A DNA stretch of 64,000 nt from Rhodospirillales bacterium (GTDB lineage Bacteria > Pseudomonadota > Alphaproteobacteria > Rhodospirillales > Casp-alpha2): contig JAEPMA010000013.1 in NCBI GenBank assembly GCA_017644185.1, forward strand, positions 1 to 64,000, given 5' to 3'. Positions 3,320-64,000 of this stretch are shown piece by piece. The position numbers and the translations under genes were made by a program. The notes under the pieces are model-generated. The model did not search any database, was not told the DNA's origin, and was given only the letters and a program-made list of their open reading frames with translations. Positions within the stretch are counted from its first letter, which is position 1. Every line of letters starts with the position of its first letter.

Positions 3320-5692
3320 TTACTCTGCCGCTTGTTTGTTGGCGTTCAAAGCCTGCCAGATCTTCAACGGTGTCGCCGGCATCTCGATGTTATCGACGCC
3401 CGCAACCCGTAAAGCGTCCGTCAGCGCGTTGATGACGGCGGCGGGTGTGCCGATGGCCCCCGCTTCGCCGCACCCCTTGGCCCCGATGGGGTTGTGGGTG
3501 CAGGGGGTTGTCGTGAAGTCGAAGTTGTAGTCGGGGATATGTTCGGCGCGCGGCATGGCGTAATCCATGTAGCTGCCGGTGACGAGCTGGCCGTCGTCGG
3601 AATAGACGCAACCCTCTAACAACGCCTGGCCGATCCCCTGGGCGATCCCCCCATGCACCTGACCCTCGACGATCATCGGGTTGATCAGGTTGCCGAAGTC
3701 ATCGACGGCGGTGAACTTCTCGACCGTGCACTCACCGGTGTCGGGGTCGACCTCGACCTCGCACACATAGGCCCCCGCCGGATAGGTGAAGTTGTTCGGA
3801 TCGTAGAACGCCGATTCGTCCAACCCCGGTTCCAGTTCGTCGTGCGGGAAATTGTGGGGCACATAGGCCTGGAACGCGACCTCGCCGATGGTCAGGGATT
3901 TGTTCGTCCCCTTGACCGAGAACACGCCGTCGTCGAATTCGACGTCGTCGGCGTTCTCCTCCATCATGTGGGCGGCAATCTTTTTCCCCTTCACGATGAT
4001 CTTGTCGATGGCCTTGACGATGGCGCTGCCACCGACGGCGAGCGAGCGCGAGCCGTACGTCCCCATCCCGAACGGGATGCGGTCGGTATCGCCATGCACG
4101 ATATCGACGTTTTCGACCGGGATCCCGAGCCTGTCCGCCGTCAACTGGGCGAACGTGGTTTCGTGGCCCTGACCGTGGCTGTGGCTGCCGGTGAACACAC
4201 TCACCGTGCCGGTCGGTGCGAAGCGGACTTCCGCCGCCTCATAAAGACCGGCGCGCGCGCCCAAGGCCCCCGCAACGGCGGAGGGGGCAATCCCGCACGC
4301 TTCGATGTAGCAGCTTAAGCCCACGCCCCTTAACTTGCCGTTCTTGGCCGATTCCTCACGCCGCTTTTCGAAGTTGGCGTAATCGGAAAGCTCCAGCGCG
4401 CGGTCCAGGCTGGCCTGGTAGTTCCCGGTGTCATACGTCAACGCGACGGGCGTTTCGTACGGGAACTGGTCCGGCTGGATGAAGTTCTTGCGCCGGATTT
4501 CGGCGGGGTCCATGCCCATTTCCCTCGCCGCGATCTCGACGATGCGCTCGATCACGTACGTCGCTTCGGGACGTCCCGCACCGCGATAGGCGTCGACGGG
4601 GGTGGTGTGGGTGAAGACCGCCTTGACCTCGGCATAGATCACCGGGGTCGTGTACTGGCCGGCTAAAAGCGTCGCATAAAGATAGGTCGGGATCGACGAC
4701 GCGAAGGTCGACAGATACGCGCCCATGTTGGCGACGGTCGCAACCTTGAGGGCCGTGAACTTCCCGTCCTTATCCATCGCCAGCTGCGCCTTGGTCACGT
4801 GGTCGCGGCCATGCGCGTCGGTCAGGAACGCCTCGGAACGGTCGGACGTCCACTTGACCGGACGGCCGGCTTTTTTAGACGCCCAGGTGACGACGGCCTC
4901 TTCCGCGTAGTGGAAAATTTTACTGCCGAACCCGCCGCCGACGTCCGGCGCCACGACCCGGCATTTGTGTTCCGGGATCTGCAGGACGAACGCGCACATC
5001 AGAAGACGGATGACGTGCGGATTCTGGCTGGTCGTCGTCAGCGTGTAGTTGTCGCCCGCCGGATCGTATTCGCCAATGGCCGCGCGCGGCTCGATCGCAT
5101 TCGGGATCAGGCGGTTGTTGACCAGGTCGAACGTGGTGACGTGGTGGGCGTCGTTGATCGCCTTGTCGACGGCGTCCTTATCGCCCAGTTCCCAGTCGTA
5201 ACAGACGTTGCCGGGCACTTCGTCATGCACCTGGGGCGCGCCGCTTTCCATCGCCTTCACCGCACTCGCGACGGCGGGCTGGACGTCGTAATCGACCTCC
5301 AGCGCTTCCGCGCCGTCCTTGGCGGCGTTTTTGGTTTCCGCGATCACGACCGCGACCGCGTCACCCACGTATCTAACCGTGTCGACGGCGAGCGGCGGGT
5401 GCGCCGGTTCGATCATCGGTGTGCCGCCCTTGCCGATCACCTGCCATCCGCAAGGCAGGCCGCCGACGCCGTCGGCCGCCATGTCGGCGCCGGTATAGAC
5501 GGCGACCACGCCCTCGACGTTGAGCGCGGAATCGACATTCACGCTTTTGATTTTCGCGTGCGCGTGCGGCGAGCGCACGAACACGGCATAGGTTTGTCCG
5601 GGTTTGGAGATATCGTCTGTATAGGTCCCACGGCCGGTCAGAAAACGGCCGTCTTCAACACGCTTCATGCGTTCGCCGACATGCTTTGCCAT
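3320..5692 (-). CDS. coxL: Form II molybdenum hydroxylase large subunit (CoxL-like)
   Basis: 790 residues, xanthine oxidase/CO dehydrogenase family catalytic subunit holding the molybdopterin-cytosine dinucleotide. Visible motifs are GGGFGSK (252-258), the active-site loop AYRGAGR (368-374) and the catalytic glutamate in GCGEAG (Glu743). True aerobic CO dehydrogenases (form I) have AYRCSFR, with the copper-binding Cys, in that loop. AYRGAGR marks form II, whose substrate is mostly unproven, so this is probably not a CO oxidiser. A ribosome site (GGGGAG) precedes the ATG at 5692, and coxS ends 2 bp upstream. The nearby MOT1 transporter and the moaB at 29.8 kb serve the same cofactor. Confidence 0.92.
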
Positions 5693-5694
5693 GG

Positions 5695-6165
5695 TCAGCT
5701 CCCCATTGCCTTGGCGCCGGCTTTGACGGCGCGGTAAATGTTTTCGTATCCGGTGCAGCGGCAGTAGTTGCCGGCGAGGCCCTTGGCGATGTCTTCGTCG
5801 CTGGGATCGCTGTTGTTATCGGCGACCTCGAGCGCGCTCATCACCATGCCGGGCGTACAGAAGCCGCACTGCAAACCATGATGGTCGTTGAAGGCTTTCT
5901 GCATCGGATGCAGGTCTTCGCCGTTGGCCAATCCCTCGATGGTCAACACCTCGGCGCCGTCGCACTGGACGGCGAGCATGGTGCAGGACTTCACGGACTT
6001 GCCGTTGACGTGGACGGTACATGCACCGCACTGGCTGGTGTCGCAGCCGACGTGGGTGCCGGTCAGGCGCAGGTTATCGCGCAGAAACTCGGTTAGCAGG
6101 GTTCTCGATTCGACGGTGGCGCTGACACTGCGCCCGTTGACCGTCATGCTGATCGCATGGGACAT
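5695..6165 (-). CDS. coxS: Molybdenum hydroxylase 2Fe-2S small subunit (CoxS-like)
   Basis: 156 residues from the ATG at 6165, chosen because GGAGAGG lies 8 bases upstream; the open frame continues further but without family similarity. Both [2Fe-2S] clusters are present: the plant-ferredoxin type (Cys41, 46, 49, 61) and the helical type (Cys100, 103, 135, 137). First gene of the operon, followed by coxL after 2 bp. The S-L-M order is the one usual for form II clusters; form I clusters are usually M-S-L. Confidence 0.93.
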
Positions 6166-6380
6166 GAACGTTTCCTCTCCTGTTCGGCGGCGCGGACGTG
6201 CCAGACACGAAGCGCCAATGCGGCCGGTTTTCCGGCTCTCATGCGTTACGTTATACGCAACTTTGAACGCGATGGAGTGACGTTTAAGTGAAACGGCAAT
6301 CTCCACAACGTCCTTGTGATTACGGTAGGCCCGCGCGCGGTTCGGAGTCAATGACCGCCAGGGTTGTTCAGGCGGTTTGT

Positions 6381-6986
6381 TCAGGGCTTTCTGGCGAGCA
6401 GCCGAAAGACCCAGCCGGTGCCCCGGTGCTTAACCCCCTCGTCGAGGAAGATTTGTCCGGAGAGGGCTTCGACGATCCGGAAATCGGGGAGGGCGGATAA
6501 TAAGCTCTCGGGATCGTACAGAAGATCGGCCTTGCCCGGGCCCAACTCGCCCGATCCGTCGTCGCCGGTCGCGAAACCTTCCGCCGCGAACCAGCCGTGT
6601 TCGTTCAGGGCTGCGGCGGCGATCCCGGCGGCGCGCCGGCGGACGTTATTCTCGCATTGAAGGTAGATCATGAACGCCGCGTCGAAGGTCTGGTCCGGAT
6701 CGGGGGTCCAGGTTTCAAGATCGGCGGTGATGCGCGCGACCGTGACGCCCAACTTTTTATCGTGTTCGCGCGCCTGTTCGGTGGCGATGTTCGAGATATC
6801 GACGGCGGTGACGTCGATGCCCTGCGCCGCCAGCCACGCCCCGTTGCGCCCATCCCCGTCGGCGATCATCAACGCGGATTTGATGCCGGTGTCGGAGCGC
6901 GCCATCACCTCGCGCACGTACTCGTTGGGGTTTTCACCGAACAGACGTTGGTCGGTTTCCTGATAGCGCTTGTTCCAGTCGGCCAT
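6381..6986 (-). CDS. Class I SAM-dependent methyltransferase
   Basis: 201 residues. The Rossmann-fold SAM site is [15 protein letters not shown] (about 40-54), an acidic GxG-type motif I, followed by the motif II acid in VDISNIA. The protein resembles small TehB/thiopurine-type methyltransferases. The substrate cannot be inferred. The start at 6986 (MADWNKRY) has AAAGGAG 8 bases upstream; an in-frame earlier Met at 7040 has no such site. It stands alone between the coxSLM promoter region and the tRNA-Gln repeats. Confidence 0.8.
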
Positions 6987-7044
6987 TGGGGACTCCTTTA
7001 TTCGTGCGACCAACTTACATCCCGGATCGGGCGCCTGCATCCAA

Positions 7045-7073
7045 CAAAAAAGCCCCCATGAAGGGGGCTATTC
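7045..7073 (-). terminator. Terminator at the distal end of the tRNA-Gln(TTG) repeats
   Basis: GCCCCC-TTCAT-GGGGGC followed by TTTTTT on the minus strand, after the last copied tRNA 3' end. It resembles the hairpin at 7292-7320 (TTCAT loop instead of TTCGT), with a one-base change in the flank. Confidence 0.75.
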
Positions 7074-7169
7074 CGTTGGCTGGGGTGCTAGGATTGGCGG
7101 CTGCGCCGCCCGCTCGAAACGAGGGGTTTCTCGCGCACGAAAGGTTCGCCTCCCGCAACCCGCACCCAC

Positions 7170-7200
7170 AAAAAAGACCCGCACAAGGCGGGCCTTTTTA
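7170..7200 (-). terminator. Terminator inside tRNA-Gln(TTG) repeat
   Basis: CCCGCC...GCGGG stem and TTTTTT on the minus strand. It is a copy of the terminator used by tRNA-Gln(CTG) at 209-239. Confidence 0.7.
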
Positions 7201-7291
7201 GTGGCTGGGGTGCTAGGATTGTCGGCTGCGCCGCCCGCTCGAAACGAGGGGTTTCTCGCGCACGAAAGGTTCGCCTCCCGCAACCCGAGCA

Positions 7292-7320
7292 ACAAAAAAG
7301 CCCCCACGAAGGGGGCTTTT
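7292..7320 (-). terminator. Terminator of tRNA-Gln(TTG)
   Basis: GCCCCC-TTCGT-GGGGGC stem-loop and TTTTTT on the minus strand, starting a few bases after the tRNA CCA end. Confidence 0.8.
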
Positions 7321-7324
7321 CCGT

Positions 7325-7401
7325 TGGCTGGGGTGCTAGGATTCGAACCTAGGAATGCCGGTACCAAAAACCGGTGCGTTAAACCGCTTCGCCACACCCC
7401 A
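7325..7401 (-). tRNA. tRNA-Gln (TTG anticodon)
   Basis: The reverse complement begins TGGGGTG and ends CACCCCA-G-CCA. The anticodon arm CCGGT-TTTTGGT-ACCGG gives anticodon TTG, which reads CAA. Apart from the anticodon arm and one base in the variable region it is almost identical to tRNA-Gln(CTG) at 241-318, so the two are recent paralogues or are kept alike by gene conversion. Confidence 0.95.
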
Positions 7402-7508
7402 TGAGGGCCCGCGGATGCGGGCAGGGCAGAAAATAGTCGATGGGCGGGGGCGGGGCAAGCCCGGGGAGGGGGAATTCCGTCGTTTGCGATTGCGCCGCGT
7501 TGGCGCGC

Positions 7509-8384
7509 TCACGCCCCATACGTGCGGGCCGCCGCGACCCACCAATTGTGGTGCGTATCGGCGATCTGCGCCGCCGCCGCTTCCGCCATCTCGATACGCT
7601 CGAACACCCCGAAACACGTCGCGCCGCTGCCCGACATGCGCGCCATCCGCGCCCCGTCCGCCTGATCGAGCGCCTTTAATACGTCCGCGATTTCGGGGGC
7701 GATCCGGCCGGCCGGTGTTTCGAGATCGTTGTGGGTCTTCGTCAGATGCTCGATCACCGCGTCAGATTCGCGCATCTCCGACGGCCAGTCGACGGCGTCC
7801 GAAAAATCCCCGTCGCGTTTCTTGAAGACGGCGGGCGTCGAGACTTCGACCCCCGGATTGACCAGAACGATAGGGAGTTCCGGGAACGCTTTCAGAAGCG
7901 TGATCTCTTCGCCCACGCCCCGCATCACGGCGGGCCGGCTCATCAAACAGACCGGGACGTCGGCCCCGAGAGAGAGCGCGAGCTTGGATATCCGCGGATC
8001 GTCGGGGGGTAAACGCCAAAGCCGGATCAATAATCGTAACGCCGCCGCCGCGTCGGCCGAGCCACCGCCGATGCCGCTCGCGACGGGGAGGGACTTGTTG
8101 AGCGTCAGCTTCGCCCCGGTCCTGATATCGAAGATTGCCGCGAGTTCCTTCGCCGCACGCATGACGAGGTTCTGTTCGGGGGCGGGTAACAGATCGGCGA
8201 ACGGCCCCTGATAATCGAGGGTGATTTCATCCGCCGCTTCGGCTTCGATCCGGTCGCCGATACCGGCGAACACGACGAGGCTATCCAGCAAATGATAGCC
8301 GTCGTCCCGTTTGCCGGTGACGTGGAGATAAAAATTGAGCTTCGCGGGGGCGGGTTCGCGAAGCGGGGGGGCTTGATCAACCAC
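7509..8384 (-). CDS. ispE: 4-diphosphocytidyl-2-C-methyl-D-erythritol kinase
   Basis: 291 residues, normal for IspE. The enzyme phosphorylates CDP-ME at the 2-position in the cytosolic MEP pathway to isoprenoids. GHMP-kinase motifs are clear: PAKLNFYL (about 13-20, catalytic Lys15), the ATP loop PVASGIGGGSADAAAAL (100-116, with Asp111) and the third motif MSGSGATCFG (about 255-264). The start overlaps the end of the upstream TPR gene by 8 bp, so the two are translationally coupled. Likely essential. Confidence 0.95.
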   Translation of the reverse strand: MVDQAPPLREPAPAKLNFYLHVTGKRDDGYHLLDSLVVFAGIGDRIEAEAADEITLDYQGPFADLLPAPEQNLVMRAAKELAAIFDIRTGAKLTLNKSLPVASGIGGGSADAAAALRLLIRLWRLPPDDPRISKLALSLGADVPVCLMSRPAVMRGVGEEITLLKAFPELPIVLVNPGVEVSTPAVFKKRDGDFSDAVDWPSEMRESDAVIEHLTKTHNDLETPAGRIAPEIADVLKALDQADGARMARMSGSGATCFGVFERIEMAEAAAAQIADTHHNWWVAAARTYGA

Positions 8385-50644: not shown

Positions 50645-52777
50645 ATGAAGATCAAGCTGCAGGTTGGCGTGTCCACCGCGTTCACGGTTATTGCCGTGAT
50701 CATGATCGGTGTGACCGTCGCGATCCTCTATTACAGCAACCATAAACTGGCGCTCGAAACCGCCGAGCAGGAAATGTCGTCGGCGCGGGAGAGGGCCGTC
50801 GCGCAGTTGGTCGGGGTGCTGGCGCCGGTCGGTCAGGTTGTCGAATCGACCGCCGATTTCGTCACCGCGTTCCCCATTGCCGCCAGAACGTACGATGGCA
50901 GCAAAGTCCTGGAATCGCGGATCCGAAAGTTGCCGCAAATCTACAGTCTCTATTTCGGGGCCGGGCTGGGTGAATTCTATCAAGTCATCAAGCTGCCGAA
51001 GATCGTGAAGACCTTCGGCCCCTACGACGAACCGGTGTTGGAGAATGCCCGGACCGTCTTTCGCTCCATCGTCGTCGGCGACCGTGGCCGGCGCGACCGC
51101 TATTACTATCAAACCGACTGGGGGGACGTCGTCCGCAAGGAAATCGCGCTCACTGACTACGACCCGCGCCAGCGGCCCTGGTTCCAGGGGGCCGCCAATC
51201 GCCATGGGGTGTTCGTCAGCCAGCTCTACCGGTTCCAGAGTACCGGTAAACCCGGCGTCACCTTCGCCAAGCGCATTCTCGACGAATTCGACGAGTTGAT
51301 CGGGGTTGCGGGTGCCGACCTGACGATGGATCAGATCGTCGACATCATCAACGACATCCGGATCGGCGACGAGGGGCGCGCTTTCCTGCTCACCAAGACA
51401 GACGAACTGATCGCTTACACCGGGACCCGGAAATCCGAAGCGGCCTTCGAGTTCGTAACCGACAAAAACCGCGACATCGAAAATATCAAGGACCCGGTCG
51501 TGGCCCAGGTCATCCGCTCGTGGATCGGCGACAAGAGGCCGTTTTTCGAATTCACCGACGTGCGCGATGGAAAGAAGTATCTGGCGTCGGCGGCGCCGAT
51601 CCCGGAGATCATGGGCATTGCACCCACGCTCGGCTTCGTCGTTCCGGAAGACGAGTTCGTCGGCGCGATCAAGAAAAGCACGACCCGGGTGCTCGAGATA
51701 TCGGGCGTGATCCTGGTGCTTTCCATCATCGTGATCATGCTGGTGTCGCGCCTGCTCAGCCGCGAACTGAACGAGGTCGCCCTCGAAGCGGGCAAGATCA
51801 GCCAGTTCGACCTCGACGATCCGTTCGAACTGCGCTCCGCGATCTACGAAGTCGACGAACTGTCGAAGTCGGTCTCCAACATGAAGACCAGCCTCCAGAG
51901 CTTCGGGGCCTACGTGCCGACGGATATCGTCCGCGCCATCGTCGCGTCGGGCGACAAGGTCAGCGTCGGCGGTGACGACCGCGAACTAACGATCCTGTTC
52001 TCGGACATTGAGGGCTTCACCCCGAAAGCCGAGGCACTGCCGCCGGAACGCCTGATGACGGATCTGTCGGCGTACTTCGCCGCCATGGAGCGTGCGATCG
52101 CGGAACATCACGGCACCATCGACAAGTACATCGGCGATGCGGTGATGGCGTTCTGGAATGCGCCGAGCCGGGATGAAAATCACGTGTTGCACGCGTGCCG
52201 CGCGGTGCTGGCCTGCCGGCTCGCCGAACAGGCACTCAACGTAAATCCGGGCACGTCGGAACTCTTACCCGTCCGGACGCGATTCGGCCTGCACACGGCG
52301 GAGGTTGTGGTGGGGAACGTCGGCTCGCCGGAACGGCTGCAATACACCGCCCTTGGCGCCGCCGTGAACCTGGCGTCCCGGATCGAAGGACTCAACAAGT
52401 TTTATGGGACGGAAGTCCTGATCAGCGAGGACGTCGCCAAGCAGGCGGGCGGACGCTTCCTGATGCGCAAAGTCGACCTCGTCTCGCCGGTCGGCACGAC
52501 CAAGCCGGTGGCGATCTTCGAACTGATGGCAGAGTTCGGGCAAGACGCCGTCCTTGCCGCCGACGAAGAAATGCAGGCCGAGGTGCGGGCCTGGGAGGCA
52601 TGCCTTAAAGATTACGAGGCGCGCAGGTTCGGCGAAGCGCTCAAGGGGTTCGAAGCATACAAAACACAGACCGCGAACCCGATCCTCCCCGATCTCTATA
52701 TTACGCGTTGCCGGGATTATATCGACACGCCGCCGCCCACGGACTGGAACGGTGTCGAAAGCTACAGCAAGAAATAA
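50645..52777 (+). CDS. Membrane adenylate/guanylate cyclase with Cache sensor
   Basis: 710 residues. N-terminal helix (about 8-30), a large periplasmic dCache domain (about 35-350), second helix (about 355-378), a HAMP-like linker and a class III cyclase domain (about 440-610). The metal Asp is in FSDIEGFT (about 453) and the second in GDAVMAFW (about 498); the transition-state Asn/Arg are in [16 protein letters not shown]. It converts ATP or GTP to a cyclic nucleotide on binding an extracellular ligand. A C-terminal helical tail (about 625-710) follows. Confidence 0.92.
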
Positions 52778-60899: not shown

Positions 60900-61799
60900 C
60901 TAGCGCCGCGTCACCCAGAAGGCGGTGGCCATGAACCCGACGGTCAGCGCGATCATGATACTGATCGCCGTTACCCAGCGATCGGCGCGTTCCTGCGCCA
61001 GAATCTCCGGCCTTACCGACCCGATCACCCGCCAGCGCGAATGCGGGATCTCGGCGCGCGCCATGACGCTGTCCATTTCACTATCGCTCAGCCGAATGTC
61101 GCGCTTCAGCGAGATCTTGTCGCGGGCGCCGTCGGCGCTGAATTCCAACAGGTCCGGCTGGTCGGTGTTGACGACCGAGAGAACATGCCCCGGGGCTTGG
61201 TTGGCGCGTATGATGGTCACCAGCGGGCCGGGAAAGAAGCTGACGAAGAAGACGCCTTTGAGTTCGTCGGCATCCGCCCGCGGCGACATGACGTCGAAAT
61301 GGTAATGTCCGGCCTGTGGGTGGATGACGGTTCGATAGTGGGCCTCGCCGTGTTCGGCACCCCGCAGTTGATGGATGTATTCCTGGATATTCAACTGGCA
61401 GGCCTGACCGACCAGCCCATCGATGTCGTTGACCAGGTCACTGCCGTTCGGGCCGGCGATGGTGAAGGTGAAGTAGGACGGGAACTGTTGGCGTAGAAGA
61501 TTGCCGATCTCCTGACGCAGCGTTTCGCTTTCCGGATTCTGCTCGAAGCGATTGACGAGGTCGAGATGTTCCTGAACGAACACCCGGACAACCCGCTGCC
61601 TTTCGTTCAGATACGCCTCGATCTTTTGAGATGTTTGTCGGACTTCTTCCTCAAGCAAAGCCGCATGGCGGGCCGCGTCGGCGGATATGGCTTGAAGCGT
61701 CATGTAGGCGGTCACGCCGCAACCCAAGACGGTCACGAGGGCGAACGCCAACAGCATGTTGCGCGCACTTCGGTTCGGTTTAGAGGTGTCGTCTGCCAC
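60900..61799 (-). CDS. Membrane protein with a lone periplasmic Cache domain
   Basis: 299 residues. Membrane helices at about 13-36 and 275-296 flank a periplasmic Cache/PDC sensor region (about 40-270, including the segment FPSYFTFTIAGPNGSDLVND). The C-terminal ending VTRR leaves almost no cytoplasmic part, so it has no output domain. It may signal through a partner, or be a sensor that has lost its output. GTG start. Faces the TerB-like gene upstream on the same strand. Confidence 0.7.
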   Translation of the reverse strand: MADDTSKPNRSARNMLLAFALVTVLGCGVTAYMTLQAISADAARHAALLEEEVRQTSQKIEAYLNERQRVVRVFVQEHLDLVNRFEQNPESETLRQEIGNLLRQQFPSYFTFTIAGPNGSDLVNDIDGLVGQACQLNIQEYIHQLRGAEHGEAHYRTVIHPQAGHYHFDVMSPRADADELKGVFFVSFFPGPLVTIIRANQAPGHVLSVVNTDQPDLLEFSADGARDKISLKRDIRLSDSEMDSVMARAEIPHSRWRVIGSVRPEILAQERADRWVTAISIMIALTVGFMATAFWVTRR

Positions 61800-61891: not shown

Positions 61892-62344
61892 TTAGCGCCA
61901 GATATCGTCCATGATGCGGTTGGCGTAGGTGACCAGTGCCGCGTGGTATTCGGATCGCTGATGGTCGAGGGGATCTTCCTCGGTCCAGGCCATGCGTTTG
62001 GCCCACTCGGTCATCGTCGCGACCCAGGGGTCGGGAAACTTGAAGGCGCGGCAGATAGACTTGATTTCCGCGAGTTCGGCTTCGTGCACGTAGTCGTCGG
62101 CATAGAGCATGCGCATCAGCTCAAGCCCGGCGATGACCCGCGCGCGGTGGGTGTCGAACATGGTGACGTCGATGTCCGCCAGCACGGCACGCTGGTCGAA
62201 CTCGAAGGGGATCTCCATCTCTTTACAGAGGGCGTCGAGCGCTTCGTGCTCGTCGGCGGAATCCTCGCCGTCCGCCTGGGTGATGCGGCTCGCCAGGACC
62301 AGCACGGCGCGTTTCTGTGCGTCATTCAACTCGTTCAGAAACAT
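61892..62344 (-). CDS. TerB-like small helical protein
   Basis: 150 residues from the ATG at 62344 (GGAG-like site upstream). Helical, with ITQADGEDSADEHEALDALC and MLYADDYVHEAELAEIKSI, the acidic helix pairs seen in the TerB/tellurite-resistance fold that binds metal. No tellurite gene is nearby. It lies 92 bp upstream of the Cache protein gene on the same strand. Confidence 0.65.
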   Translation of the reverse strand: MFLNELNDAQKRAVLVLASRITQADGEDSADEHEALDALCKEMEIPFEFDQRAVLADIDVTMFDTHRARVIAGLELMRMLYADDYVHEAELAEIKSICRAFKFPDPWVATMTEWAKRMAWTEEDPLDHQRSEYHAALVTYANRIMDDIWR

Positions 62345-62470
62345 CCGCTCCACCCTCAAATCGCGCAAAACGCGATATTTATGCCGTATTACGCAGCGTT
62401 ACAAAAAATAACTTCACTTTGGCGCCAATAATTCGGAACCTTTCGATAATAACAGGGGGGCCAGGGTCAA

Positions 62471-64000
62471 TTGAAGAAAATCCTGAGCTGGATGATCGTC
62501 GCGGTGTTTGCGGCCCTGCAAGTGGCCGTTCTCGCGCCCGATTTGCTGAGCAGTTCGAGCGGCTCGCTTAAGGTTGCCATCGTCGGCCCCATGAGCGGCG
62601 AGGACGAGGCCCAGGGCAAGGCGATGCTGGCCGGTGCCCGTCAACTCATCGACAGTTATAACCGCGAGCGCGATTCACTGACGCCGCGCGTCGTGCTCGA
62701 CGTTCACGACGACAAGAACGACCCCGAAGAAGCGAAGAAGATCGCCCTCGAACTCGCCGGCGATCCGGAAGTTCTCGCCGTACTCGGGCACCAATCCGAC
62801 AACGCGTCCGCCGTCGCCGGCCCGATCTACGCCGAAAAGGGTTTGCCCGCCGTGACCGGTTCCAGCGGTCTTCAAAAAGTCACGTTCCAGAACGACTGGT
62901 ACTTCCGTGTCGGTTTGACGACCGCCAACCAGGGGACGTTCCTCGCCAACTACATCGGCCGGGTGATGAAGGCGGAAGAGGTCTATGTCATCCGCTCGAC
63001 CGACCCTTACGGCGATACCATGGGCGAGGCGGTGGTCGACGAATTGAATTTCCAGCGGCGGTTAAGCGCGTTCAGCGTCAAGGTTCTAAACCAGTACCGC
63101 ATCGACCCGGCATCGCCGACACTCGCCGAGGATATCCAGAAGATCGCCGAAGAGATCATGCCGACGTACGCCCGCCAGCCGATCGTCGTCGCGGTGAACG
63201 AAGATATCGCCGCCGAGGTGGTTTTCGGTCTGCAAAGTAATCAGCGGCGCAGACTGGGGAAGACGATCCCCTATCAGATCGTCGGTCCCGACTCGCTCTC
63301 GAAAGCATCCGTGCAGGAAGAGTTGGCGGCAAGACGGACGACGCGGTTCGGTCTGCAGGATTTCACCGAAGGGATGCGCGCCGTGGCGCCCTTCCTTGAG
63401 GACGTCGCCAATCAGAAAGCGCGTGACTTCCGTTATGCCTATCGATCCGAATATAAGGCCGAACCCAGCGTGATCGCCGCCGGTTTCCACGACGCCGCCG
63501 CCGTGCTGGTTCGGGCGTTGGGGCAGTTGGTCGAGAACGGGGTTGCGACGACCGATGCCAAGGCAGCGCGGGAAGCCGTCCGCGAATATCTGTCCGACAT
63601 CGACACCCCCGCGAGCGCGGTGATCGGGGTCACCGGGCCGCTTTATTTCAACCGTGACGGCAACGCCATCAAGACGGTGCCCATCGGTATTTATCGCGAC
63701 CGCCGGCTTGTTTCGACACCGGTGCAGCTGAGCCCGACCGGCACCATCGACCGCGAAGACGGCGCGCCTGTGTTCCAGATCTTCGGGGGGTACTTCACAC
63801 CGACCCGGGTCGTGCCGACGGGCGTGCAGATCAACAAGATCAGGAACGTCGATCTGAAGAGCCGGACGGCGGAAATAGACTTCAATTTCTGGTTCCGGCA
63901 TCAGGGCGATCTCGATCTCAGCCAGATCGTCTTCCCGAACGCCGTCACGCCGGTCGAACTCGGCGATCCCATCGACAAGAGCGAGAAGGGGGGGCAGCAT
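62471..64000 (+). CDS. Periplasmic-binding-protein receptor, partial, C-terminus beyond the window
   Basis: 510 codons are open from the TTG at 62471 to the window end, so the gene is cut. A signal/anchor helix (about 5-24) is followed by a type-1 periplasmic-binding domain (about 35-410; VAIVGPMSGEDEAQG, GHQSDNASAVAGPIY, STDPYGDTMG), as in Leu/Ile/Val-binding proteins. After about residue 435 comes a different segment, PTGVQINKIRNVDLKSRTA and IDFNFWFRHQGDLDLS, which resembles the first strands of Cys-loop-type receptor ligand-binding domains. It is probably a surface receptor and not a transport protein. GGGGGG and CAGGG lie upstream of the TTG. Confidence 0.72.
   Translation, partial: MKKILSWMIVAVFAALQVAVLAPDLLSSSSGSLKVAIVGPMSGEDEAQGKAMLAGARQLIDSYNRERDSLTPRVVLDVHDDKNDPEEAKKIALELAGDPEVLAVLGHQSDNASAVAGPIYAEKGLPAVTGSSGLQKVTFQNDWYFRVGLTTANQGTFLANYIGRVMKAEEVYVIRSTDPYGDTMGEAVVDELNFQRRLSAFSVKVLNQYRIDPASPTLAEDIQKIAEEIMPTYARQPIVVAVNEDIAAEVVFGLQSNQRRRLGKTIPYQIVGPDSLSKASVQEELAARRTTRFGLQDFTEGMRAVAPFLEDVANQKARDFRYAYRSEYKAEPSVIAAGFHDAAAVLVRALGQLVENGVATTDAKAAREAVREYLSDIDTPASAVIGVTGPLYFNRDGNAIKTVPIGIYRDRRLVSTPVQLSPTGTIDREDGAPVFQIFGGYFTPTRVVPTGVQINKIRNVDLKSRTAEIDFNFWFRHQGDLDLSQIVFPNAVTPVELGDPIDKSEKGGQH

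Follow-up and report, generated by a model that had tools for sequence, protein, structure and literature searches.

The window, that is, the whole stretch of DNA analysed here, comprises 64,000 nucleotides and corresponds to the beginning of contig C4 of a 4.16-Mb Rhodospirillales genome. Close to its right end, a frame initiated by a TTG codon at position 62471 stays open through the last nucleotide, with 510 codons inside the window (Table 1). The original prediction, made from this truncated frame, placed the remainder of the gene beyond the window, and, upon extension of the sequence to the right, the complete gene was indeed found to span contig positions 62471-65929 (2472-5930 in our locus record L004) and to encode a product of 1152 aa. 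From the N- to the C-terminus, the protein consists of a hydrophobic N-terminus, a type-1 periplasmic binding domain (PBP), a beta domain, five predicted membrane helices, an MscS pore with its vestibule, and a cyclic-nucleotide-binding domain (CNBD). A full-protein scan of genome contigs recovered two loci in Rhodospirillales metagenome-assembled genomes (96% and 85% identical), and a paralogue in which the same type of beta domain (LBD, see below) is joined to an MscS pore is encoded on contig C29 of the same genome. An assembly artefact was rejected because the LBD-MscS join recurs in this paralogue, on a different contig, as well as in 34 proteins of other genomes.

Table 1 Features at the right end of the window, in window coordinates
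Feature	Position	Strand	Basis
TerB-family gene, divergent neighbour, 158 aa, possible partner	61892..62368	-	PF05099 E 1.4e-5
Gene for PBP-LBD-MscS-CNBD protein, part in window (510/1152 codons)	62471..64000	+	Open frame; gene end at 65929, beyond window
Hydrophobic N-terminal helix, residues about 2-29, either signal peptide or signal anchor	62474..62557	+	Hydropathy 4-22; helix 2-29 in full-length model
Type-1 periplasmic binding domain, residues about 33-400	62567..63670	+	PF13458 E 1.1e-27, PF01094 E 6.2e-13
Pentameric-channel-type ectodomain (LBD), residues 436-510 in window, onward to about 630	63776..64000	+	Alignment, profile, model, Foldseek
Predicted LBD strand 1 (residues 448-461)	63812..63853	+	AlphaFold model
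Predicted LBD strand 2 (residues 466-478), bears invariant W-F-R	63866..63904	+	AlphaFold model, alignment

The N-terminal part is a full type-1 binding domain, as originally proposed: PF13458 matches in two stretches, the better of which covers residues 33-191, and PF01094 extends over residues 60-400, the Pfam results establishing homology to Peripla_BP_6. The positions aligned to the amino-acid-binding residues of the LIV-binding protein, which represents one PBP subgroup and whose contacts with the amino acid we assume from the roles commonly assigned to these residues, are altered, so that this set of residues is not kept in the aligned PBP.

Downstream of the beta domain, hydropathy analysis, which also marks the N-terminal segment, delineates five membrane segments between residues 637 and 787, and the full-length AlphaFold model contains helices at 635-656, 665-693, 698-736, 742-764 and 769-803, at a mean pLDDT of 65.5 (48-69 in blocks of the membrane region and mostly below 50 in those of the CNBD). 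Three Pfam families score over their cut-offs in the C-terminal half, namely, PF00924 at residues 791-856 (E 2.2e-17) and PF21082 at 868-944 (E 8.5e-5), which identify homologues of the MscS beta-domain and vestibule, and PF00027 at 997-1084 (E 2.2e-21), which completes the layout of bCNG channels, an MscS pore with a C-terminal cNMP-binding domain. In sequence comparison with solved structures, residues 637-938 align with YnaI (best E 1.1e-16), a channel of the MscS type for which each PDB entry has 7 chains, and the C-terminus aligns with cyclic-nucleotide-dependent kinase domains. The pore helix adjoining the MscS beta-domain is represented by helix 769-803, modelled at low confidence, and by the sequence match to MscS and YnaI chains; pore-helix and vestibule positions are among the most conserved in the alignment. 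The CNBD translation includes FGEMALLTGEPRGAT, presumably a functional motif of cNMP-binding domains. Given the five membrane helices, the PBP and the beta domain would be periplasmic, and the vestibule and CNBD cytoplasmic.

The original prediction thus holds insofar as the domain content is that of a channel, but the pore is of the MscS rather than the Cys-loop family. A Cys-loop four-helix pore with M2, which had been expected at the C-terminus, is rejected by Pfam, by hydropathy and by the full-length model, all of which point instead to five helices with an MscS pore and vestibule, followed by the cNMP-binding domain. The output modules named as evidence against a channel (HAMP, kinase, cyclase or GGDEF) are absent from the Pfam scan of the whole protein, and a sensor kinase, cyclase or GGDEF protein was rejected on this ground.

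Affinity of the beta domain to pentameric-channel ectodomains

The suspicion that a segment akin to a Cys-loop channel ectodomain follows the PBP originated from three fragments, which translation locates at residues 452-462 (VQINKIRNVDL), 469-480 (IDFNFWFRHQGD) and 486-492 (IVFPNAV). In an AlphaFold model of residues 436-640 (pLDDT 77.9, pTM 0.73), the first two overlap model strands 13-26 and 31-43, that is, strands 1 and 2 of Table 1, in agreement with the strands that they had been thought to resemble; the frame and its fragments are confirmed, and the strands are predicted by the model. Furthermore, all 20 related domains of alignment A1 (19 middle domains from LBD-MscS proteins plus that of the truncated L036) share W-F-R of strand 2 and N-A of 'FPNA' without exception, which argues that the fragments exceed chance similarity.

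Direct searches were uninformative. Pfam contains no family matching the isolated domain (residues 430-640 are blank), the single domain produced one unrelated match (E 0.25) in a PDB sequence search, and the A1 profile recovered no pentameric channel from the PDB, its one match (E 0.65) being likewise unrelated. The connection was provided by intermediates. Alignment A2 comprises the LBDs of L057-L060, PBP proteins without MscS that were the four weaker matches from the same order. The profiles of A1 and A2 match each other with a probability of 99.6%, in a comparison for which the E-value covers one profile pair without decoy control, and the A2 profile matched GLIC in the PDB at E 5e-8. Searched against the host genome, the A2 profile identified exactly two places, the window protein (E 1.0e-12) and its paralogue (E 6.0e-14). 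Finally, Foldseek returned 1099 matches to the domain model at E <= 0.001 (best E 4.0e-9); every one of the best 50 of these is an acetylcholine-binding protein or a pentameric channel (ELIC, GluCl, GABA-A chimaera), with moderate TM-scores by query length (0.50-0.59). Profile comparison, own-genome search and predicted fold thus agree with the original assignment, and we take it as established, by way of intermediates and a modelled fold, that the beta domain is homologous to the pentameric-channel (Cys-loop/Pro-loop) ectodomain.

Relatives, the Pro-loop and the origin of the architecture

Relatives were collected at three taxonomic levels. An order-level search with residues 426-663 covered 297 genomes and produced matches in 27. 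The A1 profile matched 7 of 385 genomes at the class level and 41 of 398 at the phylum level, the host genome being included in each count; it should be noted that the class and phylum matches mix LBD-MscS proteins with other LBD proteins. For further analysis, we fetched 25 of the 28 order-search places besides the window gene (leaving aside orthologues in G244 and G027 and one G027 paralogue), six other genomes from the class search, and 20 stretches covering 21 of the 64 places in other phylum-search genomes. Together with the window gene, this set contains 53 proteins that match A1 at E <= 1e-3: 36 with MscS, nine long and six short ones without it, the truncated L036 and L106. L036 (742 aa) stops at the first membrane helix near a contig edge and is therefore not counted among the 36; L105 is cut by a contig end and L056 contains X residues.

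The 36 LBD-MscS proteins span 15 family codes. Thirteen of them were scanned with Pfam, and both PBP and MscS exceed the cut-offs in the window protein, L042, L045, L046, L054, L071, L073, L098, L100, L101, L102 and L104; in L043, MscS is recognised and the PBP is shorter and below the cut-off. A CNBD is found in four of the 36. Among the MscS-less proteins, each of the nine long ones (> 700 aa; the MscS-less proteins found with the A1 profile include PBP-bearing ones of 712-775 aa) has a PBP in Pfam, and the short ones measure 324-401 aa. For seven of these 15, Pfam reports some Neur_chan match, weak in every case, and for the other eight it reports none; in L059 and L060, Neur_chan_LBD and Neur_chan_memb are both detected but, at E 1e-4 to 2e-3, fall short of the curated cut-offs, and L057 and L058 gave no Neur_chan match in the same database. 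A simple scan marks 3-4 C-terminal hydrophobic segments (2 in the contig-cut L113). These segments, the weak Neur_chan matches and the Pro-loop described below suggest that the 15 are four-helix channels.

Two of the MscS-less loci have unusual arrangements. In L058, a single 1462-aa frame (3850-8238, minus strand) contains an MFS transporter and a weak HAMP match together with a PBP and a YPFD-bearing LBD; if genuine, the fusion would be a peculiar one. At L111 (2415-3620 and 3598-5925, minus strand), an MscS-less PBP-LBD gene has a short PBP-less LBD gene immediately behind it, the two possibly specifying a hetero-oligomeric pair.

The two kinds of protein differ in the Pro-loop. According to PMC4795631, this loop has the form [F/Y]PxD in pentameric channels, its proline is absolutely conserved, and its aspartate forms a salt bridge with the pre-M1 arginine. 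In the alignment of the 53 LBDs, from which L036 (AGFG) and L106 (YPFD) were set aside before counting, proline and an acidic residue are kept in all 15 MscS-less proteins (13 D, 2 E), including [F/Y]PFD in each of L057-L060. Among the 36 LBD-MscS proteins, the acidic residue is missing throughout, with glycine in its place in 34, and the proline persists in 11; the window protein reads SRGG at the aligned site, which does not conform to [F/Y]PxD. L106 (2415-4712, minus strand) forms a bridge between the two kinds, being MscS-less with an LBD nearest to the LBD-MscS type (E 1.3e-37 against A1, compared with 1.9e-18 for the best other MscS-less LBD). Pfam names the PBP alone in this protein, there is no MscS match, and its C-terminus has four helices by sequence reading, of which the hydropathy scan marks two. 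Because L106 has YPFD despite its LBD, the Pro-loop signature tracks the pore and not general LBD likeness, as a correlation over related sequences rather than over independent events.

In the LBD tree, a quick reconstruction from 52 rows with the Pro-loop columns omitted and several long branches, all 36 LBD-MscS LBDs fall on one side of a branch with an SH-aLRT of 97. The PBP tree groups the sensor PBPs of LBD-MscS and MscS-less proteins and separates them from eight free host-genome PBPs (SH-aLRT 95), but the two kinds interleave, with long branches; for this tree, L037 and L043 were omitted as too short, L036 was counted with the LBD-MscS type, and the row of L055 was miscropped, a PBP-less fragment standing alone on a long branch. 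The MscS tree, a weak result on which we do not rely, separates the 36 from five other MscS proteins of the host genome, which make up the five outside rows (one, L141, probably miscropped). On the most economical interpretation, PBP and LBD moved as one unit and the pore was exchanged.

Known systems, genomic context and possible function

To our knowledge, the Cys-loop ectodomain is confined to channels with their own four-helix pore and to AChBP, a free protein, and we know of no bCNG channel, that is, an MscS pore with a C-terminal cNMP-binding domain, with a PBP-LBD ectodomain. DeCLIC resembles the window protein in having an accessory periplasmic domain before the LBD and differs from it in being a pentameric channel; it keeps its own four-helix pore. 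The bCNG channels share with the window protein the order of MscS pore and cNMP-binding domain, and YnaI-type members of the MscS superfamily share the membrane helices, pore helix and vestibule over residues 637-938, but the matched YnaI chains (~330-420 aa) are too short to accommodate a PBP and an LBD. Titles on bCNG channels are among the references of PMC4560390, which states that added domains, some of them ligand-binding, distinguish the MscS subfamilies. Animal ionotropic glutamate receptors of the NMDA type also combine an external type-1 binding domain with a ligand-gated channel, as noted in PMC549065, but Pfam detects neither a PBP-II ligand domain nor a glutamate-receptor channel in the window protein.

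A close precedent is ART-LGIC. In PMC549065, prokaryotic pentameric channels joining a PBP-I, an LBD and four helices are already reported from alpha-proteobacteria, and the pairing of a PBP with a Cys-loop-type LBD, originally regarded as a different combination in a bacterium, is therefore not new in itself. Like the window protein, ART-LGIC as described there begins with a type-1 binding domain fused to a homologous LBD, the last strand of which leads into the first membrane helix; ART-LGIC is a 4-TM channel, whereas the window protein has a five-helix MscS pore and lacks the Pro-loop acidic residue, and some LBD-MscS members bear a cNMP-binding domain. What looks new, within the literature searched, is the PBP-LBD sensor on an MscS pore: no LBD-MscS protein appeared among the titles and abstract openings listed in searches of the open-access literature. 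By the tests made, the window protein, having neither a four-helix pore nor the Pro-loop, is not a pentameric channel, nor is it a plain MscS channel; by pore homology, it would be filed in the MscS superfamily as a member with a transplanted ectodomain.

To obtain clues to function, we surveyed the neighbouring genes. TerB-like genes adjoin nine of the 36 LBD-MscS genes (the window gene and eight others), as judged with a profile built from seven of these neighbours; independent of that seed set are the finds at L004 and L038 and one additional gene at L049. In 11 of the 36 loci, the same strand encodes, upstream, a large protein belonging to one blast cluster, and Laminin_G_3 was present in all five cluster proteins scanned (L041, L042, L044, L071 and L072), which are large proteins of the Laminin-G/bacterial-Ig type; the proteins encoded upstream in L053 and L102 do not belong to the cluster and matched no Pfam family. 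Eight of the 36 have ABC-transporter genes of one cluster nearby and six have outer-membrane efflux genes (by Pfam on examples), and the two may form type I secretion systems. Flanks were mostly < 5 kb and often cut by contig ends, and the counts stand without a random-gene control; at the level of hints, the context points to control of surface or secretion functions. A 299-aa protein encoded nearby (window 60900-61799, minus strand), for which Pfam gives nothing convincing and the sequence, as read, is hydrophobic at both ends, is perhaps an output-less sensor. The genome encodes 12 class III cyclase domains, so that a cyclic nucleotide is likely made in the host. One of these domains lies within the window, in a class III adenylate/guanylate cyclase encoded ~10 kb upstream of the channel gene (50645-52777, plus strand), which by reading has a large N-terminal sensor region.

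The interpretation that we favour, with moderate confidence, is that of a ligand-modulated, multi-input MscS channel which arose by pore exchange under a PBP-LBD sensor. The periplasmic type-1 binding domain would capture a small molecule; it would be seated on the domain homologous to the pentameric-channel ectodomain, the last strand of which would continue into the first of the five MscS-type membrane helices, and the cytoplasmic MscS vestibule would bear the CNBD. A ligand outside and cAMP or cGMP inside would most likely bias the opening of the MscS pore, through which ions or small solutes would pass. The PBP-LBD sensor, which in relatives drives a four-helix pentameric pore, would in this lineage have come to drive an MscS pore. 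We propose only tentatively, and with some doubt, that these proteins constitute a distinct ligand-gated class of Proteobacteria, in which a Cys-loop-type ectodomain, moved by evolution onto an MscS pore, would assemble with sevenfold rather than fivefold symmetry and would open the pore upon binding of an extracellular ligand, by means of a coupling loop remodelled from the Pro-loop.

Tension-driven opening is what MscS channels are chiefly known for, and an ordinary osmotic valve in which PBP and LBD merely stabilise or anchor the assembly, with no ligand gating, would fit the well-kept pore and vestibule positions and the altered amino-acid-binding positions of the PBP. It would equally fit the loss of the Pro-loop aspartate, which lies in the coupling path of pentameric channels (PMC4795631). 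We nonetheless consider such a valve unlikely, because the LBD-MscS join persists in 36 proteins of 15 family codes, with a PBP in those scanned by Pfam, the same PBP-LBD pair is found on proteins with a Neur_chan membrane match, and a plain scaffold has no need of a full PBP. Quite improbable, in our view, is a non-conducting receptor, in which PBP and LBD sense a ligand and the MscS and CNBD parts signal inside, for example, to the TerB protein or to surface-protein secretion: the TerB-like neighbours, the upstream cluster with its Laminin-G domains and the ABC-transporter or efflux genes near other members would be in keeping with it, but conservation of the pore helix and vestibule would be superfluous for signalling alone. 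Finally, convergence of an unrelated beta-sandwich on the pentameric-channel ectodomain, which would account for the blank Pfam and PDB sequence searches, is highly improbable in view of the profile matches in both directions with LBDs through which GLIC is reached, the PBP-LBD order common to both protein kinds, the pentameric-channel fold of the Foldseek matches, and the bridging L106.

If the interpretation as a ligand-modulated MscS channel is correct, a natural hybrid of two unrelated channel superfamilies would represent a new way to build a ligand-controlled channel. The family offers a natural experiment on the coupling of binding to pore: where the pore is swapped, the Pro-loop acidic residue goes, and the order of PBP, LBD and first helix stays. 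It also raises a structural question, namely, whether an ectodomain of the pentamer type is here assembled as a heptamer or whether the MscS pore in these proteins is not heptameric. If the channel is ligand-gated, control by an extracellular ligand would be added to a family known mainly for its response to tension.
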